Below, piece by piece: positions 10,432 to 28,870 of a DNA stretch of 64,000 nucleotides (positions within the stretch are counted from its first letter, which is position 1; every line of letters begins with the position of its first letter). Source of the stretch: an uncultured Alphaproteobacteria bacterium (GTDB taxonomy: Bacteria; Pseudomonadota; Alphaproteobacteria; HIMB59; GCA-002718135); NCBI GenBank assembly GCA_902614085.1, contig CACMJS010000002.1, positions 124,001-188,000 on the forward strand. The letters run 5' to 3'. The position numbers and the translations under genes were made by a program. The notes below the pieces were generated by a model. The model searched no databases. It was not told the origin of the DNA and saw only the letters and a program-made list of their open reading frames with translations.

Positions 10432-10456
10432 ATTATTATTTTGATTTGATTTTTAA

Positions 10457-10480
10457 AAAGCAGGGTAAAAACCCTGCTTT
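10457..10480 (-). terminator. Hairpin between binding-protein and fused permease genes
   Basis: A perfect 10-bp stem (AAAGCAGGGT / ACCCTGCTTT) with a four-base loop, placed 13 bases after the stop of the binding-protein gene and followed on the transcribed strand by a short T-run. It resembles an intrinsic terminator and probably raises binding-protein mRNA relative to the permease. Confidence 0.75.
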
Positions 10481-10493
10481 AAAAAATTATCGT

Positions 10494-11839: not shown

Positions 11840-12667
11840 TTAGTTATTTGGTGAAAGCACTTGCTCGTGAGGCATTACTATTTTTTTTTGAAATTCAGTG
11901 AGATTTGAAAGTAGTTTTTTTGAAGGTCGATAAGGGTGTCTAAAAAAACCCCAAGAAGGCCCATATCTGTAAACAACAATTCTTCTTTCTCCTTTATTTG
12001 TTCTTTTTGCAGAACCATGACAAAGTGAATCTACAAATAATAGTCCATCTCCAGCTTTTAAATAAATTTCTTTTGAAGCTGTCATATGATCAGCTGATGT
12101 AACTTTACCCTTTTTCATAACATGTTTATCAAACTCTGGATGACGTAAATTTGATTTATGTGATGAAGGAATAATGACTGTACCACCATCACCTGGGCCT
12201 ATATCATTGAGAGCTAGCAGAATATTAATTTGTCCGCAGTGAAATTTTCCATTTTCAAATCTATAATGACCTCTTTGAGTTCCTTCGTGAGCACCAGAAT
12301 GAATTCCAATAGCTTCTCCCTGCCCTCTAATATTCGCAAAATTTTCATCGATAAATAATGGTCCATGATGTTGATCAAATGTATCTTTTCCTCCAACAAA
12401 ATGAAGCATATGATTTATCCATGAAGGATGATCAATTAATTTTTCAAAGGGTTTTCCGGCTTCATAAATTTGTTGAAGATTTAAACCTTCCTTACCACCG
12501 TAATTGTGTCCATGAACATAGCCTGCCCATTCTTTATGTTTTAAACTTTTTAATTTATCTAGAATATTATTAAGATCTTTTAATTCTTTTTTACTTAAAG
12601 CATTTTCAATGATTAAATATCCATTTAAATCAAATAAATATTCATCAAGCTGTGAAACTTTTTTCAT
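11840..12667 (-). CDS. Phytanoyl-CoA dioxygenase (PhyH) family Fe(II)/2-oxoglutarate oxygenase
   Basis: A 275-residue cytoplasmic oxygenase of the PhyH family. The double-stranded beta-helix core is visible: the metal-site region around GIHSGAHEG (near 121-129), the strand FHCGQINILLALNDIGPGDG, then the distal histidine and 2-oxoglutarate-binding arginine in CHGSAKRTNKGERR. Family members hydroxylate varied small molecules, and the substrate is unknown. The gene lies between fructose-bisphosphate aldolase and the second sugar-binding protein on the same strand, with gaps of 45 and 92 bases, so it may be part of the same sugar-related transcription unit. Confidence 0.87.
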   Translation of the reverse strand: MKKVSQLDEYLFDLNGYLIIENALSKKELKDLNNILDKLKSLKHKEWAGYVHGHNYGGKEGLNLQQIYEAGKPFEKLIDHPSWINHMLHFVGGKDTFDQHHGPLFIDENFANIRGQGEAIGIHSGAHEGTQRGHYRFENGKFHCGQINILLALNDIGPGDGGTVIIPSSHKSNLRHPEFDKHVMKKGKVTSADHMTASKEIYLKAGDGLLFVDSLCHGSAKRTNKGERRIVVYRYGPSWGFFRHPYRPSKKLLSNLTEFQKKIVMPHEQVLSPNN

Positions 12668-12712: not shown

Positions 12713-13777
12713 CTAATTGATAATAGCTTTAAACTCACCAGATTTATATTTTTTTGACATTTCACCTAAAGAAATTGAGTTTATAGATGAAGCATTTCCT
12801 GCAGTTCCAAACTCTTGAAGTCTACTTTTTACAACTTCTTTCATAGCATCTTTTGAAAGTAATAAATATTTTCGGGGATCAAATTGAGAAGGGTTTTCAT
12901 GGAAATATTTTCTTACTGCAGCTGTAGCTGCTAGTCTTAAGTCTGTATCAACATTTACTTTTCGAACACCATGTTTAATTCCTTCTTGGATTTCAGACAC
13001 AGGTACACCGTATGTTTCTTTTATTTTTCCGCCATATTCGTTAATAGTTTTTATTAAATCTTGAGGAACAGAGGATGATCCATGCATTACTAAATGAGTA
13101 TTTGGAAGTCTTGAATGTATTTCTTTAATTCTATCAATTGCTAAAATATCACCTGTAGGTGGTCGAGAAAATTTATAAGCTCCATGACTCGTTCCAATAG
13201 CAATAGCTAATGCATCTACATTAGTTGCCTTAACAAAATCTGATGCCTCATCTGGATCTGTTAAAAGTTGATCATGATCAAGTTTGCCTTCTGCACCAAC
13301 ACCATCTTCTTTTTCCCCAGTTCCAGTTTCCAAAGAACCTAAGCATCCAATTTCTCCTTCAACGGAAACACCTAAGGCATGCGCCATATCAGTTGTTTCT
13401 TTGGTAACTCTAACGTTATAATCAAAGTCTGAAGGTGTTTTTTGGTCATCCATTAAGGAGCCATCCATCATGACAGAAGTAAATCCAAGTTCGATACAAT
13501 TTTTGCAATCTGATGGAGATCCACCATGATCTTGATGTAAAACAGTTGGAATGTCTGAAAATTCGTCCATTGCGGCTTCTACTAATTTTTTAACAAAAAT
13601 GGGGCCAGCGTATTTTCTTGCTGCTCCAGAAGCTTGCAAAATAACTGGGCTATTTAACTCTTTAGCCCCTTCCATTATAGCCCTAATCGCTTCCAGGTTA
13701 TTTACATTAAATGCTGGTACACCGTAATTATTCTCTGCAGCGTGATCCAAAAGTTGTCTAAGTGAAATTAATGCCAT
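12713..13777 (-). CDS. fba: Class II fructose-bisphosphate aldolase
   Basis: A 354-residue zinc-dependent aldolase that cleaves fructose 1,6-bisphosphate to glyceraldehyde 3-phosphate and dihydroxyacetone phosphate in central carbon metabolism. Visible are the catalytic and metal region [11 protein letters not shown] (near 81-91), VEGEIGCLG, the later metal-binding histidines in GTSHGAYKF and [10 protein letters not shown], and the phosphate-binding KVNVDTDLR. Length matches the class II long subtype also found with Calvin-cycle genes, but no such genes are seen here. It sits among sugar-import genes and diverges from an MFS transporter, from which it is separated by 47 bases. Confidence 0.96.
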
Positions 13778-15062: not shown

Positions 15063-16589
15063 TTAAAGTGATGCATATTCTAAATAATCATTGTGCTTTA
15101 TAAATCTTTTCATTTGATCATCATACTGATCATTAAATCTTTTATATTCATCTCTTGCAAAGGGCTTTAAGTTAAAATTATTCATTTCTTCCCTTGCAAC
15201 ATCTTTTTGAAGTAAGCCTAGGCCATCTAAAACAGGATAATAAAGTTGTGACTGAACATGAGGAAGACCTGAAAGATACAATTCAAAATCACTCATTCTA
15301 GGTAATTGATTTTTCCATTTATTAATAAGGTTCAAAGTGTCTTCGTGAATACATTCATTTTTAACATATTTCCAAAAATCACTATCATCTCTATTGGACA
15401 CATAATGAGTATTAAGAAAGATCATAAAATCATCAAACTGACGTCCAACTCTATCATTAAACTCATCCATTATTTTTTCATTATTAAAATCCATTTCTTC
15501 TTTGAGGTAATCAGTTGCAAACAAAATCATTTGTATTAGAGTGCTATGAATTGAAGTGGCTTCTAATGGCTCAAGAAAACCAGAAGCTAATCCTATGGCA
15601 ATACAATTTTTTACCCATGATTTTTCTATTCTACCCGAAGTAAATTTAATATCGTTTCTTGGTTCTATTTCATGACCTAAGACTTTCTCTATTTCAATCT
15701 TAGCTTCTTCTGGACTTGTAAAATTATCACAATATACATAACCAGCACCAATTCTTTCTTGAGTTGGTATTTGCCACATCCAACCATTTTTTTGTGCCCA
15801 AGCTAAAGTATAATTACTAATATTTTTTTCATCTAATTTTAAAAAGAAAGGCATAGCTCTATTTACTGGTAAATTTTTTTGATAAGATTTCCATCCAACA
15901 TTATATAATTTATTTATGAGGAGTTTTCTGAAGCCTGTACAATCAAGAACTAAATCAGTTTCAATTTCTTTACCACTTTCAAAATGAAGTTTTTCAATTT
16001 CTCCATTTTCATTTAATGAAGCATGCGTATAGACTTCATCAAGAATCTCTATATTTTTTGATCTTTTTCTTAAATAATTTCCAACAAGATGATTATCAAA
16101 ATGATAAGCATAGAAAAAAGGGCTTTTTAAATCGGGTCTGCTATTTTCAAGATTGAAAGGAACTTTATTTGTTTCCATTAGTTTTGTGTGTAAATGCACA
16201 TCAGCAACAGATCGACCTGCAGCAACTGCATAAACATTTAAATATTCAAAATCTTCAGGGTCTTTTTTAGATGCTAACAAATGTGGGTCATCAATTGGTC
16301 CATAATATTGATGATTTAATTCTTTCCAGTCTTTATGAACAATCCCAAACTTTAGAGTAGCTTTTGTTTCTCTTAAAAAGTCTAGTTCGTCTAAATTATA
16401 TCTTTTTAAAAAATCATAAAATATTCCGGTTGTTCCTTCTCCAACACCAATTATAGGAATGCTTGAAGGATCAACAATTGTTACTTTTACATTTTGTTTA
16501 TTTGTGTAAAAAAAATCACTTAGAATATATGCAGAAATCCAACCGGCGGTGCCTGCGCCTAGGATAGTTACGTTTTTTAATTTCCTCAT
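15063..16589 (-). CDS. Tryptophan-halogenase-like flavin-dependent protein
   Basis: A 508-residue protein of the PrnA/RebH family. Visible are the FAD-binding GAGTAGW (11-17), the GVGEGTT segment (48-54), a lysine at about 80 that aligns by context with the catalytic Lys79 of PrnA, and the halogenase signature WxWxIP as WMWQIP at 270-275. Characterised members chlorinate or brominate indoles with FADH2 and halide. Here it is the last gene of a family-5 ABC transporter operon, overlapping the ATPase stop by one base (TAATG), so it may act on something other than free tryptophan. A flavin reductase gene lies far away at 45788. Confidence 0.9.
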   Translation of the reverse strand: MRKLKNVTILGAGTAGWISAYILSDFFYTNKQNVKVTIVDPSSIPIIGVGEGTTGIFYDFLKRYNLDELDFLRETKATLKFGIVHKDWKELNHQYYGPIDDPHLLASKKDPEDFEYLNVYAVAAGRSVADVHLHTKLMETNKVPFNLENSRPDLKSPFFYAYHFDNHLVGNYLRKRSKNIEILDEVYTHASLNENGEIEKLHFESGKEIETDLVLDCTGFRKLLINKLYNVGWKSYQKNLPVNRAMPFFLKLDEKNISNYTLAWAQKNGWMWQIPTQERIGAGYVYCDNFTSPEEAKIEIEKVLGHEIEPRNDIKFTSGRIEKSWVKNCIAIGLASGFLEPLEATSIHSTLIQMILFATDYLKEEMDFNNEKIMDEFNDRVGRQFDDFMIFLNTHYVSNRDDSDFWKYVKNECIHEDTLNLINKWKNQLPRMSDFELYLSGLPHVQSQLYYPVLDGLGLLQKDVAREEMNNFNLKPFARDEYKRFNDQYDDQMKRFIKHNDYLEYASL

Positions 16590-18211
16590 TAATAAATAAT
16601 ATCAAAAGCAGATTTTATTAAATTCTTTGTATAATCATTCTGAGGGTTGGTTAATATATTTTTTGCCACACCTTGTTCTAGAATCGAACCATCTTTCATA
16701 ACGATTAAATTGTGGCTTATTGATCTAATAACTCTTAAATCATGACTGATAAAAATATAAGTAGTTTTGTGATTTTTTTGGAGTTGAAGTAATAGTTCTA
16801 GAATTTGTTTTTGAATAGATAAATCAAGAGCAGATGTTGGCTCATCCAATAAGACAAATTTTGGATTTAAGACAAATGATCTTGCTATAGCTATTCTTTG
16901 TCTTTGGCCTCCAGAAAACTCATGAGGAAATCTAAGCATGGAGCTAGGTTCTAAACCAACTTCACTCATTATGTTTTCAATTTTATTTAGCCGTTCGTTT
17001 TTATCTTTCATATTAAGTGCTACAATTAATCCCTCTTCTATAATTTGTTTAACAGACAATCGTGGATTTAAAGATGCATATGGATCTTGAAAAACTATCT
17101 GCATTTGATTTCTAAATGGCTTAAATTGCTTTCGAGATAAACGGTCAATTCGATCATCGAAAAACTTAATTTCACCTTCTACATCTGTGTTAGATTCTCT
17201 ATCAACTAACCTTAATAATGTTTGACCTAAAGTAGTTTTACCAGATCCACTTTCGCCAACAATTCCAAGAGTCTCACCTTCTTTAAGATCGAGACTGATA
17301 TTATTTACAGCGTTAATTGATAAAACTTTATTTCTACCTGATACTTTTACTTTAGTATTAAATGTTACATTAAGATTTTCTCCTGAAAGGATGCTTCTTC
17401 CATTTTTATCATAATGTAAATCTCTTTCTTCTGGCTCTGATGACAATAAATGTTTTGTATAATCATCTTTTGGATTTTCAAAAATTTCTTTTGTAATGCC
17501 TGTTTCTTTAATTTTTCCATTATACATTACACAAACTCTATCACTTATTTGTCTGACAATAGTCAGATCATGAGTAATAAATAAAATGGACATTTGATAT
17601 TTTTGTTGAAGACTTTGAAGTAATTTAAGTATCTCTGTTTGAACTGTAACATCAAGAGCAGTAGTTGGCTCATCTGCAATAAGTAAATCTGGATTATTAG
17701 CTATGGCGATAGCAATCATAATTCTTTGTCTTTGTCCTCCTGACAATTGATGTGGATACTGTGATAATCTAGACTCTGGTTCTGGAATTTGAACTTGTTT
17801 TAGTAATTCAAGACATTTTTCTTTGAGTTCTTTATCTGAAAATTTTCCATGAATTTTTAAAACCTCACTAATTTGGTTTTCAATTGTATATATTGGATTT
17901 AAAGAACTCATTGGTTCTTGAAAAATCATTGAAATATTTTTTCCTCTAATATTTTGATACTCTTTTTCAGAATAAGAATTTATATTTGTACCATTAAACT
18001 TTATTGATGTTTGATCAGATATAATTGCATTTTCTGCAAGTAATCGAATAATTCCTCTAGCAGTAACAGATTTACCAGACCCACTCTCTCCTACTAGTGC
18101 TAATGTTTCGCCCTTTTTAATATTAAAGGATATGCCATTCACTGCATTTACTTCACCACTATCTGTATTAAACTTTACTTGAAGATTTTCAATTTCAACA
18201 AGATTAGTCAT
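16589..18211 (-). CDS. Double-domain ABC transporter ATPase, DppD-DppF/OppDF-like fusion
   Basis: A 540-residue protein with two nucleotide-binding domains in tandem. Domain 1 has Walker A GESGSGKS (near 36), signature LSGGQRQR and Walker B LLIADEPTTALDVT; domain 2 has GESGSGKTT (near 313), FSGGQRQR and FVLLDEPTSALDLS. Each domain ends with the extension typical of peptide/oligosaccharide importers. It supplies both ATPase sites for the permease pair encoded at 18211-20318. Start and stop overlap neighbouring genes by one base, indicating translational coupling. Such fused ATPases are common in alphaproteobacterial family-5 systems. Confidence 0.95.
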   Translation of the reverse strand: MTNLVEIENLQVKFNTDSGEVNAVNGISFNIKKGETLALVGESGSGKSVTARGIIRLLAENAIISDQTSIKFNGTNINSYSEKEYQNIRGKNISMIFQEPMSSLNPIYTIENQISEVLKIHGKFSDKELKEKCLELLKQVQIPEPESRLSQYPHQLSGGQRQRIMIAIAIANNPDLLIADEPTTALDVTVQTEILKLLQSLQQKYQMSILFITHDLTIVRQISDRVCVMYNGKIKETGITKEIFENPKDDYTKHLLSSEPEERDLHYDKNGRSILSGENLNVTFNTKVKVSGRNKVLSINAVNNISLDLKEGETLGIVGESGSGKTTLGQTLLRLVDRESNTDVEGEIKFFDDRIDRLSRKQFKPFRNQMQIVFQDPYASLNPRLSVKQIIEEGLIVALNMKDKNERLNKIENIMSEVGLEPSSMLRFPHEFSGGQRQRIAIARSFVLNPKFVLLDEPTSALDLSIQKQILELLLQLQKNHKTTYIFISHDLRVIRSISHNLIVMKDGSILEQGVAKNILTNPQNDYTKNLIKSAFDIIY

Positions 18212-19314
18212 TATTTTTTTGTTGTTGTTGCATATGGATCAATTGCATCGCGTAAAGCATCACCCAAAGCATTAAATCCTAAAACTGAAATTAAGATTGC
18301 AAAGACAGGACTTAAAACCCAAGGATAACTTCCAATTGTTCGCATATCTTGAGCAGAATTTAATTGAAGACCCCAACTAACAAATGGAGATTGAATGCCT
18401 AAACCTAAAAAGCTAAAAAAACTTTCTGTCAAAATTACAGAAGGTATCAATAAAGAAACACTTACTATAACGTGACTTGTTACATTAGGAAGTAGATGTC
18501 TATAAATAATTCTTAGATCATTGGAGCCTAAAGCTTCAGCTGCTTTAATATAGTCTAATCTTCTTAAAGAAAGGGTTTTTCCTCGGACCTCTCTTGATAG
18601 TTGAGCCCACCGTAAAGAGGATAAAATAAATGCCATAAAGATAAAAATCAGAAATGGATCCATTTGCCTTGGAAGAATTGCTACCAAGGATAAATACAAA
18701 GGTAGATCTGGAAAAGCTAAAGCAAGTTCCGTAACTCTTTGTGAAGCTATATCAAATTTTCCTGAAAAATAACCTGAGCTAATTCCAACTAAAATACCAA
18801 TAAAAGTTGTTATACTTACAACTATGAGAGCGAATAATAGCGTTACCCTACTTCCCTTAAAAATTCTTGATAACATATCCCTTCCATAGGCGTCTGATCC
18901 AATAAAAAAAACTTTAGACCCGTCTTTAGTAGTAAATAAATGTAAGTCCAAATTTAAGCCTAGAAACTTATATTCCCATCCTCTAGTAAAAAAATAAAGA
19001 TAGTTTTTTTGAGTATAATCAATCTCCATTATTGGAAGATATGTGTCAGGATCAAATCCTTCAGTAAAGCCATAAGCGAAAGGTCTTAACGAAAAATTAT
19101 TATCTTCATCAAAGAAATGTATTCCCTGAGGTGGATAAAAAACTCTATCACTGTCTCTTGCTGCTGGATCATATGGAGATAAAAAATCTGCAAAAACAGC
19201 AGAGAAAATTAAAAAGCCTACAAAAATTAAGCCTAATATTCCAACTCTGTTTTTTAAAAATCTTTTTCTTACTAGTGAAAAATATGAATTTTGTAAGTTT
19301 GAAGTTGTTTCCAT
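18211..19314 (-). CDS. ABC transporter permease, DppC/OppC-like
   Basis: An inner-membrane permease of 367 residues. It has an N-terminal OppC-type segment with one helix (residues about 28-48), a long periplasmic insertion of roughly 80 residues before the main helices, and the loop AAEALGSNDLRIIYRHLLPN that docks on the ATPase. It pairs with the DppB-like permease six bases upstream. Although the family is named for dipeptides, the operon context (GH4 glycosidase, large binding protein) favours oligosaccharide import. Confidence 0.93.
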   Translation of the reverse strand: METTSNLQNSYFSLVRKRFLKNRVGILGLIFVGFLIFSAVFADFLSPYDPAARDSDRVFYPPQGIHFFDEDNNFSLRPFAYGFTEGFDPDTYLPIMEIDYTQKNYLYFFTRGWEYKFLGLNLDLHLFTTKDGSKVFFIGSDAYGRDMLSRIFKGSRVTLLFALIVVSITTFIGILVGISSGYFSGKFDIASQRVTELALAFPDLPLYLSLVAILPRQMDPFLIFIFMAFILSSLRWAQLSREVRGKTLSLRRLDYIKAAEALGSNDLRIIYRHLLPNVTSHVIVSVSLLIPSVILTESFFSFLGLGIQSPFVSWGLQLNSAQDMRTIGSYPWVLSPVFAILISVLGFNALGDALRDAIDPYATTTKK

Positions 19315-19319
19315 AATAT

Positions 19320-20318
19320 TTAATTCTGTCTTACACGAGGATCTAAAATTGCTAGCAAAATATCAGCAATGATATTTCCAATAATTAATATTACTGTTAA
19401 GCAAAATAAAATTGCTGCAGTAGTATAAGTGTCTTGTCTTTGAATAGATTCTACTAAAAGTGGTCCCGCAGTTGGAATAGATAAAACGATCGCAGCTTCT
19501 AGTTCACCCATTAGCATATATGGTAAAGCAATACCCTGGAACATTACAAGGGGATGCAAAGCATTTGGTACAGCATGACGGTATAATGTTTGATTTTCAG
19601 ACAAACCTTTTGCTCTTGCTGTTTCAATATATTGCATACGCATTACATCTAATAAATTTCCTCGCATTACTCTCATATTGTATGCAAGACCTCCGATAAT
19701 TGCGATGACAAATATTGGCCAAATATGAAGTATGCCATTCCATAGTTTTGCAAATGACATTGGTTGAACAGCGTAGTACGGAGAGTACATTGATCCAGTG
19801 TTATCCGAATTTAGAACAATTGCTAACCAATACATAATTAGTAATGCTAGAAAGAAACGTGGAATGGTCATTCCTAAAAAAGCGAAGATAGTGGCTACAT
19901 TATCACCTAACTTATTTTGATTTTTTGCAGCATAAATTCCGATAAAAACACCAATTGTTGTAGCAAAAAAATGACAAATTAATGCTATTGCTAAAGTTCG
20001 AGGTAATCTATCGCCTAACATTTCACTGACAGGTTTGTTGTAATGCATGGAAAAACCAAAATCGAAATTTAAAACAATATTTTTAATCCAATTGAAATAT
20101 CTTATTACTAATGGTTCATTAAGTCCGTATTTTTCTCTCAACATTATTGTTAGTTCTAAAGCTTGTTCTTGTGTGATATTTGCTAAAGCTTTAGTTTGAC
20201 TAACATACCATGTTGCGTAATCACCAGGTGGTAATTCAATAATAAAAAAAATTATAATACTGATTACGAACAGTAGCGGAAGTGAATAAAGAATTCTTCT
20301 AAATATAAATGAAAGCAT
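19320..20318 (-). CDS. ABC transporter permease, DppB/OppB-like
   Basis: An inner-membrane permease of 332 residues with the OppB start (MLSFIFRRILYSLPLLF), about six helices and the ATPase-contact loop ARAKGLSENQTLYRHAVPNA. It forms the heterodimeric channel with the DppC-like protein. A strong hairpin (20332-20358) separates it from the binding-protein gene upstream. Confidence 0.94.
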   Translation of the reverse strand: MLSFIFRRILYSLPLLFVISIIIFFIIELPPGDYATWYVSQTKALANITQEQALELTIMLREKYGLNEPLVIRYFNWIKNIVLNFDFGFSMHYNKPVSEMLGDRLPRTLAIALICHFFATTIGVFIGIYAAKNQNKLGDNVATIFAFLGMTIPRFFLALLIMYWLAIVLNSDNTGSMYSPYYAVQPMSFAKLWNGILHIWPIFVIAIIGGLAYNMRVMRGNLLDVMRMQYIETARAKGLSENQTLYRHAVPNALHPLVMFQGIALPYMLMGELEAAIVLSIPTAGPLLVESIQRQDTYTTAAILFCLTVILIIGNIIADILLAILDPRVRQN

Positions 20319-20331
20319 TTTTTTTAAATAA

Positions 20332-20358
20332 AGTAAGGGGCTTAAATAGCCCCTTACT
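20332..20358 (-). terminator. Hairpin between family-5 binding-protein and permease genes
   Basis: A perfect 11-bp stem (AGTAAGGGGCT / AGCCCCTTACT) with a five-base loop, 10 bases after the binding-protein stop. No strong T-run follows on the transcribed strand, so mRNA stabilisation or partial termination is likelier than full termination. It is the third hairpin in this window at the same place in a transporter operon. Confidence 0.72.
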
Positions 20359-20368
20359 AAGAAGTTTA

Positions 20369-22420
20369 TTAATCAATACCAGGAACTCTTCCGGGGAAAA
20401 GTTCATCTAATTGATCATATTGATAAACCCAGAATTGTTCACGGATAACTGTATCTTCAGCCCATTGATAAGCTAAAACAGGCATTCCATCAGCTAAGTT
20501 TTGAATTCTTTTATTTATCAAAAGTGCTGTTGGATATTGAACTATACCAGGCATATAAACATTTTCTGTAAATAGTTTCTGATAGCGAGACATTAATGCT
20601 TGAGCCTCTGCTCCTTCAACACCATCTCTCCACTCTTCAAGAATACTTACGATTTCTTTCTCAAATGGTTGAAGTTGTTGAGGGTGTTCATCAGTTCCTA
20701 AGTGAGGATCAAATGAAGACGTAGTTACAGGACCCATATCTGACCAATAACCCGAATTAGGGAAGGCCATTTCTTGTTGAGATCTTACAAGTAACCAATC
20801 CCATTCACCTGCTTGTCTTGTTGGCTCAGTATCTTCCATTGGTTTAATATTAATTTTAATACCAACTTCAGCCATCATAGTTGCCATTCCATCGCCAATC
20901 AACATTTCATTATCACTGCCTTTATTTTGAACTAAATTAATAACTAGATCTCCACCTCCATTTGGAAGGTTTCGAATTCCGTTACCATCAGTATCTATAA
21001 GACCTAATCCATCAAGTATAGAATTTGCACCTGCTGGATTATAAGGGAAAAATGAAGTAGCATCTGCATCAAAGAAAGCACTATCTCTAGCAAGACCGCC
21101 TGCATAAACTGTCACAAATGGTCCTTTGGACATTGCTTTTGCAAATGCTTTACCATCAATTGCATGCTTAACAGCTTTTCTGAATTCTAAATTTCTATTT
21201 AGATCTCGAATAGCTGCCATTTGATCATCCAATACACCTAACCCAATTGCTTGGTTCATGGCGAGTTGATATCCCATAGTTCTTCCACTAAAAGATAGTT
21301 GAGCTTGCGCATCGTCACTCTTAGACTCTTTAACAGCTTCTAAGTATAAAGGTACGTTCTCCATATTCGAGAAGTCAGCGTTACCTGCTAAGGTATCAAC
21401 CGTTCTTTGTCCCCATGTTTTTAACTGGAACACCATCTCGTTCATATATGGAAGTTGTTGTCCTTTACTATCAACTTTCCAATAGTATGGATTACGACGA
21501 AGTATTACGACCTCGTCTTGTTTATATTCAACAGCAGTCCATGCACCCATGCTAACCCATGGTAAACGTCCAGCAGGGAATGCTTGAACATAATCATCAT
21601 AAGACGTACCACCATATTTAGGGTGATGTTCTTTAAGTAAATGTGATGGTCCAGGGCATCCATTTATATATGCCATGGAGTGAAGAACTAATTTAGGTTC
21701 CTCTTGTGGGAATGTCCATCTAATCTGAGTAGGACTAAGTACTTCTAGAGTTGTCCCTTCTCCCATTGTGGTTGCATTCATTCTTGTTGGAACATTCTCA
21801 TCTAGAACGTTATCTTCCCACCAAAAACGAACATCTTCTGCATCAAATGGATCACCATCTGACCACTTTGCTCCATCAATTAGGTTCATAGTAAGTTTAT
21901 TTCCATCCCATTCCCAATCAGTAGCTAAGTTTGGTAAAGGATAAGAGTCTTCAGCTTTTAATCTTACCATTGGACCATTTCTTGTTAGACATTCTTGAAC
22001 TGTGTAATTAATTCCACCCCATCCTTGATGTTGTGAAGCAGTCCAGTTCCATCCTTCAGGTCTTCCGCCAATTGTATGTCTAAAAGTTCCTCCATAACGA
22101 CCAATACCATCAGGCATTGCATCTCCATTAAAAACTAAAGGTCTTTTTGGTAAACGTTCCCAAATTGGTGGGAGTTTTCCTTCTTGAACTAGAGCACTAA
22201 TATATTCTGGCTCATATAAAAATTCAAAGTCTCCAATATCTTGATAGCTCATCAATTCATCTCTTCCAATGAACTGAACTTCTTGCATATTTTCAATTGC
22301 AGGTGCTGATGGAAGTGCTATTGCACCTTCCGGTCTAGCAGACGCATTAGTACTGGTTAATGCAAAAGTAGCTGATGCTACGCTAGCAAGTAATGTGGAT
22401 CTAAATTTATTTTTTTTCAT
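20369..22420 (-). CDS. Periplasmic solute-binding protein, family 5, large type
   Basis: A 683-residue secreted binding protein with a signal peptide ending near STNASA (about residue 28). It has family-5 landmarks such as WKVDSKGQQLPYMNEM and the early GGTFRHTIGG and GDPFDAEDVRFWWED segments. At this size it is longer than classical DppA (about 500 residues) and resembles the large binding proteins such as AgpA of Sinorhizobium, which bind alpha-galactosides. With a GH4 glycosidase upstream and MelA nearby, an oligosaccharide ligand is inferred; a peptide ligand is not excluded. A gap of 81 bases separates it from the GH4 gene. Confidence 0.92.
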   Translation of the reverse strand: MKKNKFRSTLLASVASATFALTSTNASARPEGAIALPSAPAIENMQEVQFIGRDELMSYQDIGDFEFLYEPEYISALVQEGKLPPIWERLPKRPLVFNGDAMPDGIGRYGGTFRHTIGGRPEGWNWTASQHQGWGGINYTVQECLTRNGPMVRLKAEDSYPLPNLATDWEWDGNKLTMNLIDGAKWSDGDPFDAEDVRFWWEDNVLDENVPTRMNATTMGEGTTLEVLSPTQIRWTFPQEEPKLVLHSMAYINGCPGPSHLLKEHHPKYGGTSYDDYVQAFPAGRLPWVSMGAWTAVEYKQDEVVILRRNPYYWKVDSKGQQLPYMNEMVFQLKTWGQRTVDTLAGNADFSNMENVPLYLEAVKESKSDDAQAQLSFSGRTMGYQLAMNQAIGLGVLDDQMAAIRDLNRNLEFRKAVKHAIDGKAFAKAMSKGPFVTVYAGGLARDSAFFDADATSFFPYNPAGANSILDGLGLIDTDGNGIRNLPNGGGDLVINLVQNKGSDNEMLIGDGMATMMAEVGIKINIKPMEDTEPTRQAGEWDWLLVRSQQEMAFPNSGYWSDMGPVTTSSFDPHLGTDEHPQQLQPFEKEIVSILEEWRDGVEGAEAQALMSRYQKLFTENVYMPGIVQYPTALLINKRIQNLADGMPVLAYQWAEDTVIREQFWVYQYDQLDELFPGRVPGID

Positions 22421-22501: not shown

Positions 22502-23965
22502 TTATAAATTAAATGCTTCTTTTTCGACTAAAACTGACCTTTTTTGTTGATTACGCTTTGTTTTTTTAGTCAGCCCTTTAATTGCTTTATTATATTTATA
22601 ACTTTTTAATTTTTTTAGATTCTTTTTAATACTATTAATTTTTGATTGATATTGTGGAAGCCACTGTGCTTGTGCTACAAGCATCTCATCTACCATTTGC
22701 CAAACTTCCTCTGATGAACATACTGAGCTTACTAGTGGATCTTGCAGTACAGCAAGTTTTAATAATTCAATATCTCCTTTTATTGCTGCCTTTACAGCCA
22801 TTCTTTGGACATCTATTGAAGTACTGCATAGAGAAGCGCATTGTAGGGGTAAGGTTACTCCTTTAATCATTTTTATACCTTTTGAATCTACGTATCCTGT
22901 ACTCTCAATTACGCAATCATCATCTAAATTAGAAATTATTTTTTTATTAATAACATTAAAATGCCCTCTATATTTTTTTCCAGTTTCAATTGCTTCAATT
23001 ATATAACTTCCGTGTTCAGTTGATCTTTTGTAATCTTTAAGTTTAATTCCAGAATTTTTTAAATATTTTGGATAATCCTCAACAAACCAATTTCTTTTTT
23101 CATTACATACTCTTAAGTAACCACCTGTTTCGCCATGTATCCAGTTTGAAAGACTACTCCATTTCTTCACATCTTTTTGAGTACGTCTATACCATGGTAA
23201 ATATTCGCTCAAATGACCGTTACTTTCTGTAGAAAAATAACCAAATTTATCTAAAACATCTATTCTAACTTTTTCATCTCTTGAAAATTTTTTATGTTTC
23301 TTTAACGATTTAGAAAGCTGGTCTTTTGTAATTTTTTTACCTTTATAATTTAAATCCAAATACCAAGTCATGTGATTTATACCGCTGCAAGAATATTTCA
23401 TTTTTCCAAATGGAATGTTTAATGAATCTTCAATTAATTTTGCTCCACCTTGTACTCCATGACACAAACCAATTGTATTAACTTTACCAATTTCATTTGC
23501 AGCCCAGGTATTCATAGCCATAGGATTTGCATAATTTAAGAAAAGAGCATTTTTTTTTGCATATTTTTTTATATCTTTACAAAAATCTAAAATAACTGGA
23601 ATGTTTCGTTGTCCATACATTATACCGCCAGCACAAATTGTATCTCCAACACATTGATCGATACCATATTTTAAAGGAATAGATATATCAGTCTCAAATG
23701 CTTCTAAGCCCCCAACTCTAACACAACTAATTATATATTTTGCATTTTTTATTGATTCTTTTCTAATTGGATCAATACTAAGTTTAGTTGGAAGGTTATT
23801 AGCTGTTATATCTTTTTGAATTAATTCAGCTACCATTAACAAATTACTTCTAGATATGTCGTGAAGAGAAATTTCTATATTTTGAAGTTTTTTTACTTTT
23901 AAAATATCTCGAACAAGGGTTTGGGTAAAGCCAACACTGCCTGCGCCTAGAAATGATATTTTCAT
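22502..23965 (-). CDS. GH4-family glycosidase, CHGV subtype
   Basis: A 487-residue NAD- and metal-dependent glycosidase. The N-terminal Rossmann motif is ISFLGAGSVGFTQTLV. The active-site CHGV occurs at 168-171 and the metal-binding histidine in CSGINHMTW near 198. GH4 enzymes cleave glycosides by oxidation at C3, elimination and re-addition. E. coli MelA has CHSV at this site, and the second GH4 in the window also has CHSV, so this copy probably acts on a different glycoside (alpha-glucoside or uronide are candidates). It is the first gene of the family-5 transporter operon. Its ribosome-binding AAGGAG lies about 15 bases from the ATG, farther than usual. Confidence 0.9.
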   Translation of the reverse strand: MKISFLGAGSVGFTQTLVRDILKVKKLQNIEISLHDISRSNLLMVAELIQKDITANNLPTKLSIDPIRKESIKNAKYIISCVRVGGLEAFETDISIPLKYGIDQCVGDTICAGGIMYGQRNIPVILDFCKDIKKYAKKNALFLNYANPMAMNTWAANEIGKVNTIGLCHGVQGGAKLIEDSLNIPFGKMKYSCSGINHMTWYLDLNYKGKKITKDQLSKSLKKHKKFSRDEKVRIDVLDKFGYFSTESNGHLSEYLPWYRRTQKDVKKWSSLSNWIHGETGGYLRVCNEKRNWFVEDYPKYLKNSGIKLKDYKRSTEHGSYIIEAIETGKKYRGHFNVINKKIISNLDDDCVIESTGYVDSKGIKMIKGVTLPLQCASLCSTSIDVQRMAVKAAIKGDIELLKLAVLQDPLVSSVCSSEEVWQMVDEMLVAQAQWLPQYQSKINSIKKNLKKLKSYKYNKAIKGLTKKTKRNQQKRSVLVEKEAFNL

Positions 23966-24031: not shown

Positions 24032-24763
24032 ATGACAGATTTTTCAGATTTCAGAAATAATGGATATATTCTTAAAAGAAATCTTTTTTCTAAAGATGAA
24101 GTATTAAAGCTAATAAGGTATATCGAAGACAATTCTGAAAAAGAAGATCAAGCCAGAGAAACTTTTAGCTCTACAGGTAAATTAAATATTACTTTATGGA
24201 ATCATCCATCTGATGATTTATTTGGTAAATTTTCTACTAATGAGAGAATTGTTAAACCAATGGAAGAATTTCTTGAGGATGAGGTCTATCATTATCACTC
24301 AAAAGTAATTTGGAAAAAACCTGGTGATGGAGGTTTTGATTGGCATCAAGATTATGGATACTGGTATCATAACGCATGTCTTTACCCCGACATGGGGTCT
24401 TGCTTTATAATGTTGGACAAAGCTACAAAAGAAAATGGATGTCTGAAAGTTTTAAAAGGATCACAAAAAGTTGGAAGAATTGGTCATGGCGTTTCTGATA
24501 CTCCTGAACAAACAGCTGACTTGGATAGAATACGCGAATTAGAAAAAAGACATGAGTGTGTCCATATTGAAGCTAATCCAGGTGACGCACTTTTTTTTCA
24601 TGCAAATCTTTTACATTCCTCTGATGCAAATAAATCAAATGAATCTAGAAGAACATTAATTGTTTGTTTTAATACTAAGTCCAATGATCCATATAAAGAA
24701 AACGGTCATGCAAGTTACTCGCCATTAAAAATTTCTCCATATAATTCGATTATGGAATATTAA
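24032..24763 (+). CDS. Phytanoyl-CoA dioxygenase (PhyH) family Fe(II)/2-oxoglutarate oxygenase
   Basis: A 243-residue oxygenase with a clear HxD iron site (DWHQDYGYWY, near 108-112), the core strand FIMLDKATKENGCLKVLKGSQK, and the distal histidine and arginine region LLHSSDANKSNESRRTL. Family reactions are hydroxylations using O2 and 2-oxoglutarate; the substrate is unknown. It is divergent from the GH4 operon and is followed by a desaturase-like gene, melA and the PanB-like gene on the same strand. It is not a close copy of the PhyH protein at 11840-12667. Confidence 0.9.
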   Translation: MTDFSDFRNNGYILKRNLFSKDEVLKLIRYIEDNSEKEDQARETFSSTGKLNITLWNHPSDDLFGKFSTNERIVKPMEEFLEDEVYHYHSKVIWKKPGDGGFDWHQDYGYWYHNACLYPDMGSCFIMLDKATKENGCLKVLKGSQKVGRIGHGVSDTPEQTADLDRIRELEKRHECVHIEANPGDALFFHANLLHSSDANKSNESRRTLIVCFNTKSNDPYKENGHASYSPLKISPYNSIMEY

Positions 24764-24832: not shown

Positions 24833-25825
24833 ATGCATATAAATTCTTCCACATGGTATATTCCTAAGATTGAAAAGAAAAAACTCAAAGAACTTTCAAA
24901 AAGAAGTGATGGACCAGGTTTGATTCATTTCTTAATATATTTTTCATCACTTATATTTTTTGGTTATCTTTCATATTTTTTTTGGGGTAGTATTTTGTTT
25001 TACTTTTTCTTTTTTATTTATTCTACAATCTATACATTTGCTATTTCTAATCTTCATGAAACAATTCATCGTACAGCTTTTAAAACTCGCTGGATTAATG
25101 AAATTTTTCTGTACATATCATCTTTTCAGCTGCATAGTGAACCAGTTGGCTTTAGATGGAGTCATACATTTCATCACTCAAATACATTACAGACACAAGG
25201 TGAATATGATCATGAAATTGAAGTTTCAAGACCCACAGACCTATTAAAATTTTTTTTAAAATTTATTCCTTTTTCAGATATATTTTTTATTCACCAATCT
25301 TCTTTTGTTGGAACAATTAAATCATCTTTAGGAATTATGAGTCCTGCTATAAAAATTAGTGCCCCTAAAGATCAACAAAAAAAAATAATAAGTAATGCAA
25401 GAATAATAATAGTTATTTGGGCAATAATAATTTCAACTTCTATTTATTTTAATAACTTGTGGCCAATAATATTTTATTTTTTACCAACTTTTGTGGGAAG
25501 ACCTGTACATTTTGCAGTTAATGTAACACAACACTTAGCAGCTAAAATTGATACAAAAGATCATAGATTAAGTACACATACAATCATCTTAAATCCAATA
25601 TTAAGTTTTTATTATTGGCATATGGAATATCATACAGAACATCATATGTTTCCAATGGTGCCTTCTTATAATCTTAAAAAATTAAGAAATGAAATCAAGG
25701 ATTCTTTGCCTATTCCATTTTATGGTCTTTTTGATTTTTATAAAAAAGTATTGCCATCTTTAATTAAACTAGCATTTGATTTAAATGGATATTATAAAGT
25801 CAAATTACCTTATGATCAAAATTAA
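24833..25825 (+). CDS. Membrane fatty acid desaturase-family di-iron protein
   Basis: A 330-residue integral membrane protein with the three histidine boxes of the desaturase/hydroxylase family: HETIH (75-79), HTFHH (111-115) and HTEHH (near 265), plus an extra QHLA histidine segment. Hydrophobic stretches lie near residues 31-70 and 192-222. Members insert double bonds or hydroxyl groups into lipids, carotenoids or alkyl chains. It lies between a PhyH oxygenase and melA, and is followed by melA after 29 bases, suggesting co-transcription. Its substrate is not inferable. Confidence 0.87.
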   Translation: MHINSSTWYIPKIEKKKLKELSKRSDGPGLIHFLIYFSSLIFFGYLSYFFWGSILFYFFFFIYSTIYTFAISNLHETIHRTAFKTRWINEIFLYISSFQLHSEPVGFRWSHTFHHSNTLQTQGEYDHEIEVSRPTDLLKFFLKFIPFSDIFFIHQSSFVGTIKSSLGIMSPAIKISAPKDQQKKIISNARIIIVIWAIIISTSIYFNNLWPIIFYFLPTFVGRPVHFAVNVTQHLAAKIDTKDHRLSTHTIILNPILSFYYWHMEYHTEHHMFPMVPSYNLKKLRNEIKDSLPIPFYGLFDFYKKVLPSLIKLAFDLNGYYKVKLPYDQN

Positions 25826-25854: not shown

Positions 25855-27216
25855 ATGACTAAATTAACAATAATTGGTGCGGGAAGTGCAGTTTTTACTA
25901 AGAATATTTTTACAGATTTAATGTTTATTGATGATTTTAAAAAAATGGACATTGCACTGGTAGACATTGATGAAAAAAGATTAAAAATCTCTCATGAGTT
26001 ATTAGATGTAATTGCAAAAAAGTTGGATGCTTCTCCTAATATAAAATCATATACTAATAGAAAAGAGGCTTTAGCAGGTTCTGATTTTGTACAATCAACT
26101 ATTCAAGTAGGCGGTTACAAACCATCCACAGTTATAGATTTTGACATTCCAAATCAATTTGGTTTAAAACAAACAATTGCTGATACTCTTGGTATTGGAG
26201 GAATTATGCGAGGGCTTAGAACAATTCCTGTCTTAGTAGATATTGGTAAAGACATAATGGATCTTTGTCCAAATTCTTTGTGGTTACAATATGTAAATCC
26301 TATGTGTTCAAATATGATAGCGATAAATAATGCATGTCCTGGAATTAATTCTATAGGACTTTGTCATTCAGTCCAAGGAACTGCAGAAATGCTTGCTAGA
26401 GATCTAAATGAAAAAATTGAAGATATTGATTATCTATGTGCTGGGATAAATCATATGGCTTTTTATAAAAAGTTTGCAAAAAAGAATGGCAATGGTGGAG
26501 AAGATCTTTATCCAAGATTGAAACAATTAGCTGATGATATTGTTAGAGATAAAATAACATCTACTAGAAGTATAGGTAAGGATAGTGAATCAGATAAAGT
26601 TCTACATGAAAAAGTAAGATACGAAATTTTAAGACGATTTGGTTATTTTGTTACAGAGTCTAGTGAACATTTTGCTGAGTATGTTCCATGGTTCATTAAA
26701 CAAAACAGACAAGATTTAATTGATCAATATAAAATTCCAATTGAAGAGTATATCGATAGATGTGAAAATAATATCAAGTTATGGGATGATTTAGAAAAAG
26801 ATATGACGCCTATTCATAATCAACCTCTAAAAAGAGGAAAAGAATATGCATCATACATTATGGATGCTGTAACAAATAATAATGAAGTAACAATTAACGG
26901 AAATGTAATGAATGATGGATATATAGATAATTTACCATCAAATTGCTGTGTTGAAGTTCCCTGTTTAATTAATTCAAATGGTAATCAACCTCAAAAGACT
27001 GGTCGCTTACCTGAACATTTGGCAGCTTTAATGAGAACAAATATAAATGTTCAAATATTGACTGCAGAAGCGGCATTAACAAATAAAAAAGAGCATATTT
27101 ATCATGCTGCAATGCTTGATCCATTAACGGGAGCAAATTTATCCATTGATGAAATATATGCAATGGTTGATAAATTAATTGAAGCACACGGTAATTACTT
27201 ACCTAAATATCATTAA
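25855..27216 (+). CDS. melA: Alpha-galactosidase, GH4 family (MelA)
   Basis: A 453-residue cytoplasmic enzyme that hydrolyses alpha-galactosides such as melibiose, using NAD and a divalent metal. The Rossmann motif IIGAGSAVFTKNI opens the protein. The GH4 active site is GLCHSVQGTAE (CHSV at 170-173), identical in type to E. coli MelA, and the metal histidine is in CAGINHMAFY (His200). TESSEHFAEYVPWF and the C-terminal HAAMLDPLTGANLSIDEIY also match MelA. Its stop overlaps the PanB-like gene's ATG by one base (TAATG). The likely importer is the family-5 system on the opposite strand. Confidence 0.94.
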   Translation: MTKLTIIGAGSAVFTKNIFTDLMFIDDFKKMDIALVDIDEKRLKISHELLDVIAKKLDASPNIKSYTNRKEALAGSDFVQSTIQVGGYKPSTVIDFDIPNQFGLKQTIADTLGIGGIMRGLRTIPVLVDIGKDIMDLCPNSLWLQYVNPMCSNMIAINNACPGINSIGLCHSVQGTAEMLARDLNEKIEDIDYLCAGINHMAFYKKFAKKNGNGGEDLYPRLKQLADDIVRDKITSTRSIGKDSESDKVLHEKVRYEILRRFGYFVTESSEHFAEYVPWFIKQNRQDLIDQYKIPIEEYIDRCENNIKLWDDLEKDMTPIHNQPLKRGKEYASYIMDAVTNNNEVTINGNVMNDGYIDNLPSNCCVEVPCLINSNGNQPQKTGRLPEHLAALMRTNINVQILTAEAALTNKKEHIYHAAMLDPLTGANLSIDEIYAMVDKLIEAHGNYLPKYH

Positions 27217-28043
27217 TGCCTAAACTTACAGTTAAAGATTTATTTGACAAAAAAGGAAAGGTTAAATTAACAGAACTATATGTGACAAATGCTTTAGAAG
27301 CGTATGCAGCTGAACAGGCTGGAATAGATATTCAAATTGTTTCATTCAAAAAAGAGACATTAAGAACAGGTGTACCAACAAATAAATGGTTTCGAGATGC
27401 TCATATTAAAGATATTCGTGATGCGGCAGCAAACACTTTTATGATTTATGGTCTTGGTCAACTTTCTTCACCAGAGAAAGCAATTGATGCTGCACTTATA
27501 GCAAGGGAAAATGGTGCTGATGCAGTTTATTGCGGTAATAGTCCAAAATATATAGAAGCTCTTCGCAATGAAGGTTTACCAGCAGTCAGTCATATTGGCT
27601 TAATTCCATATAAAAGTACATGGACAGGAGGGTTCAAAGCAGTTGGAAAAGATGCACAGTCTGCTTATAGGGTTTATCAAGATGCTTTAGCATATGACCA
27701 AGCTGGGGCTATAGGTCTAGAGGTAGAATGTGTTCCTGATAGAGTTGCAGAAATAATTACAAATAAAGTTAATTTATTAACGTTATCCATGGGCAGTGGT
27801 CCTAAATGTGATGTTGAGTTTTTATTTATTCAAGATGTTATTGGAACAAATACAGATAGAGTACCTCGTCATGCTAAAGTTTTTAAAGATACAAATAAAT
27901 CTTACGAAAAACTTGTTGATGATACTATAGAAGGTCTTAAAAATTTTATTGAAGACGTAAACACTAAAAAATTTCCAACTCCATCAAATGTTGTTGAAAT
28001 AAAAGATGAAGAGTTCGAAAAATTTTTGACTAAAGTTGGCTAG
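27216..28043 (+). CDS. Divergent PanB (ketopantoate hydroxymethyltransferase)-like protein without canonical metal ligands
   Basis: A 275-residue protein that follows the PanB TIM-barrel pattern: AAEQAGIDIQIV near 31-42, SHIGLIP (125-131), TGGFKAVGK (137-145) and LEVECVPDRVAEIIT (168-182). PanB makes ketopantoate for coenzyme A synthesis. Aligned by eye with E. coli PanB, the catalytic glutamate (Glu181) is kept as Glu171 and His136 as His126, but the three metal ligands Asp45, Asp84 and Glu114 correspond to Phe44, Gly79 and Gly107. It is therefore unlikely to be an ordinary PanB. Translational coupling to melA suggests a role in sugar catabolism; the reaction is unknown. Confidence 0.72.
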   Translation: MPKLTVKDLFDKKGKVKLTELYVTNALEAYAAEQAGIDIQIVSFKKETLRTGVPTNKWFRDAHIKDIRDAAANTFMIYGLGQLSSPEKAIDAALIARENGADAVYCGNSPKYIEALRNEGLPAVSHIGLIPYKSTWTGGFKAVGKDAQSAYRVYQDALAYDQAGAIGLEVECVPDRVAEIITNKVNLLTLSMGSGPKCDVEFLFIQDVIGTNTDRVPRHAKVFKDTNKSYEKLVDDTIEGLKNFIEDVNTKKFPTPSNVVEIKDEEFEKFLTKVG

Positions 28044-28870
28044 ATACTTATAGTTAATAAATCTTCTCCAATAATAGGATCTTTACCAAAATCTTTTTTT
28101 ACAATTTTCTTTAATTTTGAAGCATTAAATCTTGTTGGAACAAAATGTGTTAATACAAGTTCTTTACAATTTGATAATTTAGCAACTTTGCCCACAAGAT
28201 TACTTGGTGTGTGATATTCTTTGACATTATGTAATGTTTTTTTAGTTCTAAGTTTAGACGTTTTATTCATTTCATATTCTATAAAAACCTCATGAAGTAA
28301 AACATCTGAGTTCTGAGCATTTTGCATTAAACTCTCACACGGTCGTGTATCTCCACTAATTGTTAATTTTTTCTTATTATTATAAAATGAAAAACCATAT
28401 GCATATGGCACTGGTTTGTGATCAACTTCAAAATATTTAATTTTTATATCGTTTATTTTTATTGAGCCATTTTTTTTTAATTCATAAACTTTATATTTAA
28501 GAGCATTTGTTGATTTTCTTTTTTCATAAGAAATTCTTAATTGACGTTCAATTTTCCAAGCTGAAAATATTTTATCAACAAATTTCTTTGTTCCTTTTGG
28601 TCCATATATTTTCCATATTGAATCTCTATCGGAGTGCCAAGAAGAAATGATTAGTTGATACAAATCTATAACATGATCAGTGTGTAAATGGGTAAGTAGT
28701 AAAGCGTCAATATCAGCCGAAGAGTTTTTACTTTGATTTAATCTTTGCGTTACTCCAGAACCACAATCAATTAAAATTTTAGTTTTCTTTGTTGATACAA
28801 GGTTTGATGCACCACACCTTTTATAATCAATTGAGGGACATCCTGTTCCTAGAAGCGTTAGCTTCATCAT
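28040..28870 (-). CDS. MBL-fold metallo-hydrolase, RNase Z/arylsulfatase-like subgroup
   Basis: A 276-residue beta-lactamase-fold hydrolase. The beginning [18 protein letters not shown] and the zinc motif HLHTDH (near 80-85) are typical; further metal positions lie in SGDTRPCE and near [10 protein letters not shown]. Such proteins hydrolyse phosphodiesters or sulfates; a role in tRNA 3' processing is possible but not shown. Two adjacent ATG codons (28870 and 28867) could start it. It overlaps the rpoD stop by a few bases and may be co-transcribed with rpoD. Its TAG stop and that of the convergent PanB-like gene share CTAG. Confidence 0.85.

Follow-up and report, generated by a model that had tools for sequence, protein, structure and literature searches.

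Results

A PanB-like gene closes a run of four genes

The DNA analysed here, henceforth the window, is a stretch of 64,000 nucleotides (positions 124,001 to 188,000 of contig CACMJS010000002.1, assembly GCA_902614085.1) from an uncultured alphaproteobacterium of the HIMB59 lineage, whose nearest relatives we take to be marine single-cell genomes. It contains a gene for a protein that has the family and fold of ketopantoate hydroxymethyltransferase (PanB) and lacks the PanB metal site. We describe this gene, its relatives and their genomic neighbours, and propose that the members of this PanB-like family capture one-carbon (C1) units on folate in partnership with oxidative demethylases. Three genes precede it on the forward strand:

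24032..24763, + strand: PhyH-type oxygenase (PF05721, E 2e-33)
24833..25825, + strand: FA_desaturase-family membrane oxygenase, MocD-like (PF00487, E 5e-27)
25855..27216, + strand: GH4 glycosidase of the alpha-galactosidase subfamily (NF011657, 595.6 bits against a cut-off of 486)
27216..28043, + strand: PanB-like protein without the PanB metal site, 275 amino acids, intact open reading frame (ORF) (PF02548, E 3.3e-39)

These genes are separated by gaps of 69 and 29 bases and then by a one-base overlap, and are likely to form a four-gene run in which the PhyH gene comes first. The overlap lies at a TAATG motif: the GH4 gene ends with TAA at 27214-27216 and the ATG of the PanB-like gene begins at 27216, so that, as the original prediction had pointed out, translation starts inside the stop codon of the glycosidase gene (called melA there). 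Related loci were gathered with two peptide patterns, and counts given here are among the matches listed. The directly upstream GH4 gene and the TTAATG junction are kept in all seven close relatives (L009-L015), whereas only one of the 77 representatives of the wider family has a GH4 gene beside it, namely the representative of the window's own clade. The proposed coupling to alpha-galactosidase thus holds locally and does not extend to the family.

The MocD-like protein of the window carries the histidine motifs HETIH, HTFHH and HTEHH, as read in the sequence, and shares 35% identity, across 325 aligned positions, with its MocD-like counterpart in a Rhizobium johnstonii operon. Neither the MocE ferredoxin nor the MocF reductase was found in the window run, whose ORFs leave no room for them; MocE and an FAD reductase adjoin a PanB-like paralogue elsewhere in the same genome (locus L007, see below).

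One half of the PanB active site is lost and the other half is kept

The Pfam family PF02548 (Pantoate_transf) matches residues 3-255 of the window protein with 135.3 bits (gathering cut-off 28.7), whereas the PanB equivalog model TIGR00222 scores it at 107.9 bits, below its cut-off of 207.55. We aligned 105 distinct PanB-like proteins, among them the window protein and its paralogues, with 44 canonical PanB sequences (43 genomic and that of E. coli), admitting rows with E of at most 1e-8 and at least 220 residues and counting identical sequences once. Asp45, Asp84 and Glu114 of E. coli PanB, which we take to be its metal ligands, align with Phe44, Gly79 and Gly107 of the window protein, while Glu181 aligns with Glu171 and His136 with His126. 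An acidic residue (Asp or Glu) occurs at any of the three metal columns in 0/105 PanB-like proteins, and all three are present in 44/44 canonical ones. The same split applies to Lys112 (0/105 against 44/44), which presumably serves the keto-acid enolates in PanB. Retained in the PanB-like family are His136 (104/105), Glu181 (105/105), Asp209 (104/105) and the GxG loop. These losses and retentions indicate that the keto-acid and metal half of the site has gone and that the other half has been kept.

The family also has residues of its own. Glu169, two residues before the catalytic glutamate, is present in 105/105 PanB-like proteins and is replaced by Val or Leu in 44/44 canonical ones; Trp136 (100/105), Ser191 (101/105), Arg218 (105/105) and His219 (104/105) are further examples. 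On the alignment, part of the family has a single acid in a shifted position, an Asp one column after Asp45 (42/105; not in the window protein, and in a region of lower model confidence), and Glu169 is, by its nearness to Glu171, a candidate part of a new acidic metal site.

An AlphaFold2 (AF2) model of the window protein (48 sequences) reached a mean pLDDT of 90.4 and a pTM of 0.83, and places the lost residues where strands 2 to 4 end and the kept residues at strands 5 to 8. Its best matches among solved folds are PanB entries, with Z from 23.6 to 26.1 (3vav_H 26.1, 1m3u_A 25.0). In the phosphoenolpyruvate (PEP) mutase/isocitrate lyase superfamily the acidic metal site lies on the beta2-beta4 side; many of its members match the model at Z of about 14 to 16, with PanB well above. 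Overall, the full-length PF02548 match, the PanB fold at Z 26.1 and the equivalence of Glu171 with E. coli Glu181 agree with the original prediction of a preserved scaffold and catalytic glutamate, and the alignment returns the same three ligand replacements that its hand alignment had given.

A canonical panB lies elsewhere in the genome

The genome that contains the window (G000; 1.65 Mb, 96% complete) encodes five PF02548 proteins, of which one is a canonical PanB and four are PanB-like: the window gene, one gene in locus L007 and a tandem pair in locus L008. The canonical panB, which the original prediction had suggested looking for, lies at G000:C1:315798-316538 and scores 255.7 bits on PF02548 and 230.9 bits, over the cut-off, on TIGR00222, against which the four PanB-like paralogues reach 92.9 to 107.9 bits (cut-off 207.55). 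As panC is also present, pantothenate synthesis is independent of the window gene. The view that the latter does not serve this pathway is therefore upheld both by the genome and by the absence of the ligands and Lys112 from the whole family.

FolD and formyl-tetrahydrofolate (formyl-THF) synthetase are encoded in G000, and neither Fae (PF08714) nor class III formaldehyde dehydrogenase was detected over cut-off in this genome; this set of C1 genes fits the proposed function.

The paralogous loci have neighbourhoods of their own. At L007:5360-13545 the order is MocD-like, FAD reductase, MocE, PanB-like, MocD-like, sterol desaturase, SMP30 and IlvD-type genes, next to a sugar-type ABC transporter, and the locus resembles a methyl-sugar degradation cluster. 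At L008:8232-9922, 10019-11559 the tandem PanB-like genes are divergent from two PhyH oxygenase genes; tandem pairs flanked by PhyH genes were also seen in L040, L044 and L065. The L008 region further contains sialidase-like (BNR) and M81 peptidase genes by Pfam, as well as genes to which NanE- and ROK-like names were given by reading only.

The PanB-like family is distinct and patchily distributed

The tree of the family excludes matches below 185 bits or shorter than 215 residues, exact copies, and the loci L001-L005 and L149; thinning the remaining 122 sequences at 85% identity gave 77 representatives, among which L116 represents the clade of the window. The 77 PanB-like representatives separate from six canonical sequences with a support of 100/100. 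A match of at least 250 bits was found in 20 of 385 sampled alphaproteobacterial genomes, the window's own included; 15 further genomes listed have best scores of 139 to 180 bits, and at least one of these matches (G051) is canonical. From the 19 other genomes with such a match, 18 loci were taken as a class sample (G020 was left out). An order-level sample contained PanB-like genes in 5/61 genomes, four of them new, with an adjacent sterol desaturase in two and an FA_desaturase in one. The PanB-like proteins are thus a patchily distributed, distinct family derived from PanB, and should not be filed as PanB. Members from Verrucomicrobia, Planctomycetes, Actinomycetota and Betaproteobacteria have neighbours without a common theme beyond sugar enzymes in some (30 of 215 listed ORFs scanned with Pfam). 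Twelve phage records also match the window protein, all at less than 60% identity.

Oxygenase genes recur next to PanB-like genes

A recognised oxygenase lies within 3 kb of the PanB-like gene in 37/77 representatives. Where 9 kb were available on both sides (26 representatives), an oxygenase was found at 0-3 kb in 13, at 3-6 kb in six and at 6-9 kb in two, the first and last counts differing with a Fisher p of 0.0016. An oxygenase neighbour was likewise present at 8/18 class-sample PanB-like loci compared with 1/20 canonical panB loci (p 0.0067), with the provisos that the neighbour hidden Markov models (HMMs) were built from the same loci and that some of the class-sample and control stretches stop at contig ends, three of the 20 controls being 3.3 to 5.1 kb. 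The control in question, L208 (G078), is unique among the 20 in having a Rieske-type oxygenase 1.5 kb and a PhyH gene 3.8 kb from its canonical panB.

The oxygenases are of several kinds: MocD-like proteins, sterol desaturases, PhyH at several loci and a Rieske oxygenase at one, where it stands directly upstream of the PanB-like gene (L068, the same contig as L178). Since oxygenases of different kinds are involved, what they most simply have in common is their product, the C1 unit. Four loci (L020, L021, L023 and L032) repeat the arrangement in runs of PanB-like, MocD-like, PanB-like and sterol desaturase genes.

Individual loci showed further features. In Mesorhizobium plurifarium (L078:3812-10666), genes for PhyH, a sugar-binding protein, PfkB and RbsD (by Pfam) precede the PanB-like gene on the same strand, and L079:3011-9737 has a similar layout; speculatively, this run could serve 2-O-methylribose. 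A threonine dehydratase gene adjoins the PanB-like gene at L061:2497-4011 and L174:6215-7729, both of them loci where no oxygenase neighbour was detected. An apparent oxygenase/PanB-like gene fusion in L072 was rejected, as the long ORF is a GC-rich overhang.

Rhizobial relatives link the gene to folate C1 enzymes

The fourteen annotated plasmid regions examined that contain a PanB-like gene comprise eight of MocD type, two of sterol-desaturase type and four purU loci. The eight, with Rhizobium and Sinorhizobium among them, combine a LacI regulator, a MocD-like protein, MocE or a Rieske-type ferredoxin, an FAD-dependent oxidoreductase (absent in two) and the PanB-like protein, with iolG next in one. 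The two consist of a sterol-desaturase oxygenase, a 2Fe-2S protein and an FAD reductase, in one case behind a ribokinase. In public records the rhizobial plasmid homologues bear the product name 3-methyl-2-oxobutanoate hydroxymethyltransferase.

A rhizopine-type order, mocR-mocD-mocE-mocF-PanB-like-purU, was found in five records (L219, L233-L236), which were reached by following one MocD-type match and its homologues. In Rhizobium indicum pPR13E04 it comprises a MocR-like regulator (GntR plus aminotransferase), MocD, MocE, an FAD reductase, the PanB-like protein and PurU, and the annotations of R. lentis and Phyllobacterium zundukense show this order as well. MocD is unannotated in the moc locus of Sinorhizobium meliloti RCAM1115, where the profile detects it in two pieces, and the moc-type order of S. 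kummerowiae is known from profile scans. S. fredii NGR234 (L237) has MocD, MocE, FAD reductase, PanB-like and purU genes with a LacI-type regulator in place of mocR. In P. zundukense (L234), an intact folD begins 3 bases after purU; FolD scores 476.6 bits (cut-off 396), PurU 330.3 (285.95) and MocE 185.8 (136.15) at this locus. In R. indicum and R. lentis (L219, L233), purU is followed by folD-like pieces that do not form a single intact ORF.

A separate lineage, G146 (L189), has on one strand MocE, a xylose-isomerase-like TIM barrel, the PanB-like protein, two MocA-type dehydrogenases, PurU and a PfkB/DUF2090 kinase; no oxygenase was detected at this locus. At none of the 20 canonical control loci was purU present. 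Neither FolD nor formyl-THF synthetase was found beside PanB-like genes in the initial locus set, and FolD matches later came from L219, L233 and L234, intact only in the last.

PurU converts formyl-THF to formate and FolD converts methylene-THF to formyl-THF. Given these functions, the activity left to account for in these runs is the formation of methylene-THF from the product of the oxygenase, and the moc gene order, together with folD in P. zundukense, places the PanB-like protein between a presumed O-demethylase and the enzymes of folate C1 oxidation.

Other genes of the window

Upstream of the run, the reverse strand contains:

22502..23965, - strand: second GH4 glycosidase, divergent (NF011657, 544.1 bits)
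16589..22420, - strand: oligopeptide-type ABC transporter (Pfam matches for the binding protein and one permease)
16589-18211, - strand: ATPase of this transporter
18211-19314 and 19320-20318, - strand: its permeases
20369-22420, - strand: its SBP_bac_5 binding protein

Two of the four transporter genes were assigned from translations only, and the transporter may take up glycosides. Directly after its genes is one for a tryptophan-halogenase family protein (15063-16589, - strand; PF04820, 334.8 bits). Sugar ABC transporter genes adjoin those for another PhyH protein (11840-12667, - strand) and a class II fructose-bisphosphate-type aldolase (12713-13777, - strand). On the other side of the run, a gene for an RNase Z-like metallo-beta-lactamase protein (28040-28870, - strand) shares its last four bases with the end of the PanB-like ORF.

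Discussion

We propose that the PanB-like protein is the folate C1-capturing partner of oxidative demethylases, a reading to which we give a probability of roughly 0.55. In this scheme the oxygenases would act on methylated sugars and inositols, hydroxylating their methyl groups to R-O-CH2OH, and the PanB-like protein would put the formaldehyde-level C1 unit on THF to give 5,10-methylene-THF, with either free formaldehyde or a substrate-bound hydroxymethyl hemiacetal as the donor. Methylene-THF would then pass via FolD, and PurU or formyl-THF synthetase, to formate. PanB itself combines the chemistry of THF with that of a hydroxymethyl group; without the keto-acid site, what remains would be the C1/THF part. 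If function can be transferred from the rhizobial loci, whose homologues in P. zundukense and G146 are 40% and 33% identical to the window protein, the GH4 enzyme of the window would free a (methylated) sugar, the methyl group of which PhyH and the MocD-like oxygenase would attack, and the PanB-like protein would collect the C1 unit. That the latter is a dedicated THF-dependent enzyme, which takes the hydroxymethyl hemiacetal or formaldehyde from a sugar or inositol O-demethylase before free formaldehyde escapes, is a more specific version that we rate at a little under even odds.

Several comparisons place the family beside known systems. It shares with PanB (TIGR00222, PF02548; 1m3u, 3vav) the fold, His136, Glu181, Asp209 and the GxG loop; it differs in lacking Asp45, Asp84, Lys112 and Glu114, in scoring below the equivalog cut-off, and in its catabolic oxygenase context alongside a canonical PanB. 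MocDEF of rhizopine (3-O-methyl-scyllo-inosamine) catabolism reportedly has a demethylating role. The PanB-like gene sits inside the mocDEF run of rhizopine-type loci, and the window has a MocD-like gene (35% identity), whereas MocE and MocF have no counterpart in its run. The mocDEF homologues of R. mesoamericanum are reported, in the part of the study drawn on here, to be up 1.5 to 2.1-fold in Mimosa root exudate, the top component of which was pinitol (PMC5789663); this induction fits methyl-inositol catabolism and is silent on the PanB-like gene. An excerpt of a report on the pAO1 nicotine operon purU-mabO-folD describes a demethylation step that yields methylene-THF, with purU and folD in the same operon (PMC3891541). 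MABO, by that account, is an oxidase that yields methylene-THF itself, whereas here a separate oxygenase and PanB-like protein would stand in its place. By analogy with Fae, the PanB-like protein would likewise capture formaldehyde enzymatically on a pterin cofactor, although Fae is of an unrelated family and uses tetrahydromethanopterin, as stated in the consulted section of PMC7073904. The same section treats the condensation of formaldehyde and THF as spontaneous and very slow, too slow for growth, and considers PanB a possible promiscuous catalyst of it in E. coli.

A number of observations weigh against our proposal. A recognised oxygenase within 3 kb is missing from 40/77 representatives, including all 13 of the Verrucomicrobia/Planctomycetes clade, and an oxygenase is missing from 10/18 class-sample loci; in L013 and L014, close relatives of the window, the nearest one detected is 6.3-6.4 kb away on the opposite strand. 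Because ten loci (L007, L022, L024-L030, L036) have one PanB-like gene for three oxygenases, a strict one-to-one pairing is doubtful. As for folate, the purU links stem from few lineages and the five moc loci are closely related rather than independent cases; neither purU nor folD was found beside the window gene's family at the loci scanned in marine relatives, and FolD adjoins one of the 20 canonical panB control loci (L201, the same locus as L133). Among seven MocD-type loci (taken from 40 listed of 269 matching records, with 5 kb on each side), a PanB-like gene is present in three and absent in four (L220-L223), so that it is not obligatory for such loci. One of the four, L220 on a Nitratireductor rhodophyticola plasmid, reads LacI, MocD, MocE, FAD reductase and purU with no PanB-like gene in the stretch. 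Another, from Alisedimentitalea, adjoins a 5-guanidino-2-oxopentanoate decarboxylase gene, and its oxygenase may be a hydroxylase and not a demethylase. The catabolic units named in the part of PMC10107442 consulted are mocDEF, mocR, mocBA and mocC, with no part given there to a PanB-like protein or PurU. Finally, deletion of panB and ltaE left formaldehyde-dependent growth of E. coli unchanged according to the same section of PMC7073904, a result that does not test the PanB-like family.

Four other explanations have to be weighed. The PanB barrel could have been re-purposed as an aldolase, lyase or isomerase that acts on the carbon skeleton of a sugar or sugar acid after glycoside cleavage or demethylation, which is close to what the original prediction had in mind when it suggested a new activity in galactoside catabolism. 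The sugar-acid enzymes next to L007 and its relatives (SMP30, an IlvD-type dehydratase, a short-chain dehydrogenase (SDR)), the PfkB kinase, RbsD mutarotase and UxuA neighbours, the GH4 gene of the window and the many representatives lacking a close oxygenase would all suit such an enzyme. However, the metal ligands and the equivalent of Lys112, with its part in enolate chemistry, are gone throughout the family, and the neighbouring sugar enzymes vary widely, while the partners that recur are oxygenases, ferredoxins and in some loci purU/folD. Since, in addition, a GH4 gene accompanies a single representative, we regard this as a rival that is unlikely and not the best reading; galactoside catabolism describes the window's own neighbourhood and is too narrow for the family, and a folate-linked C1 step with oxidative demethylation fits more of the evidence. 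Still less probable, in our estimation, is a non-catalytic or accessory oxygenase protein (an assembly partner, formaldehyde sink or sensor) that keeps only the PanB fold. Tight operon linkage and the repeated oxygenase/PanB-like runs would be expected of it, but the near-strict conservation of His136, Glu181, Glu169 and Asp209 resembles a working active site and the purU/folD linkage suggests C1 chemistry.

Formaldehyde might also be handled without THF, through another carrier or by addition to a metabolite, and here it counts that the oxygenase linkage is broader than the purU/folD linkage and that the THF step of our scheme is drawn from PanB chemistry and a few loci. We nevertheless hold this to be improbable, as purU adjoins the gene in three kinds of locus (the moc type, the LacI type L237, and L189), folD is intact in L234, and neither Fae nor class III formaldehyde dehydrogenase scores over cut-off in the window's own genome. 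Least credible of all is a divergent second ketopantoate hydroxymethyltransferase mis-scored by profiles: the public plasmid annotation, the Pfam family and the fold speak for it, and against it stand the wide gap on TIGR00222 between the four paralogues and the canonical copy (230.9 bits), the missing metal ligands, and the panB and panC genes elsewhere in the genome.

Among the matches listed in open-access PMC titles and abstracts, no paper on a PanB-like part of mocDEF or on its role in folate metabolism was found. If folate-linked C1 capture is indeed the function of the family, the rhizobial genes that go under the PanB product name are mis-annotated and belong to methyl-ether catabolism, and the PanB-like protein would be the missing folate counterpart of Fae and would fill a gap in the breakdown of rhizopine and methyl sugars. 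It would then also be clear how several such oxygenases are affordable for a small genome in which neither Fae nor class III formaldehyde dehydrogenase was detected. A family that stands between O-demethylases and folate enzymes makes the enzymatic condensation of formaldehyde with folate in nature directly testable.

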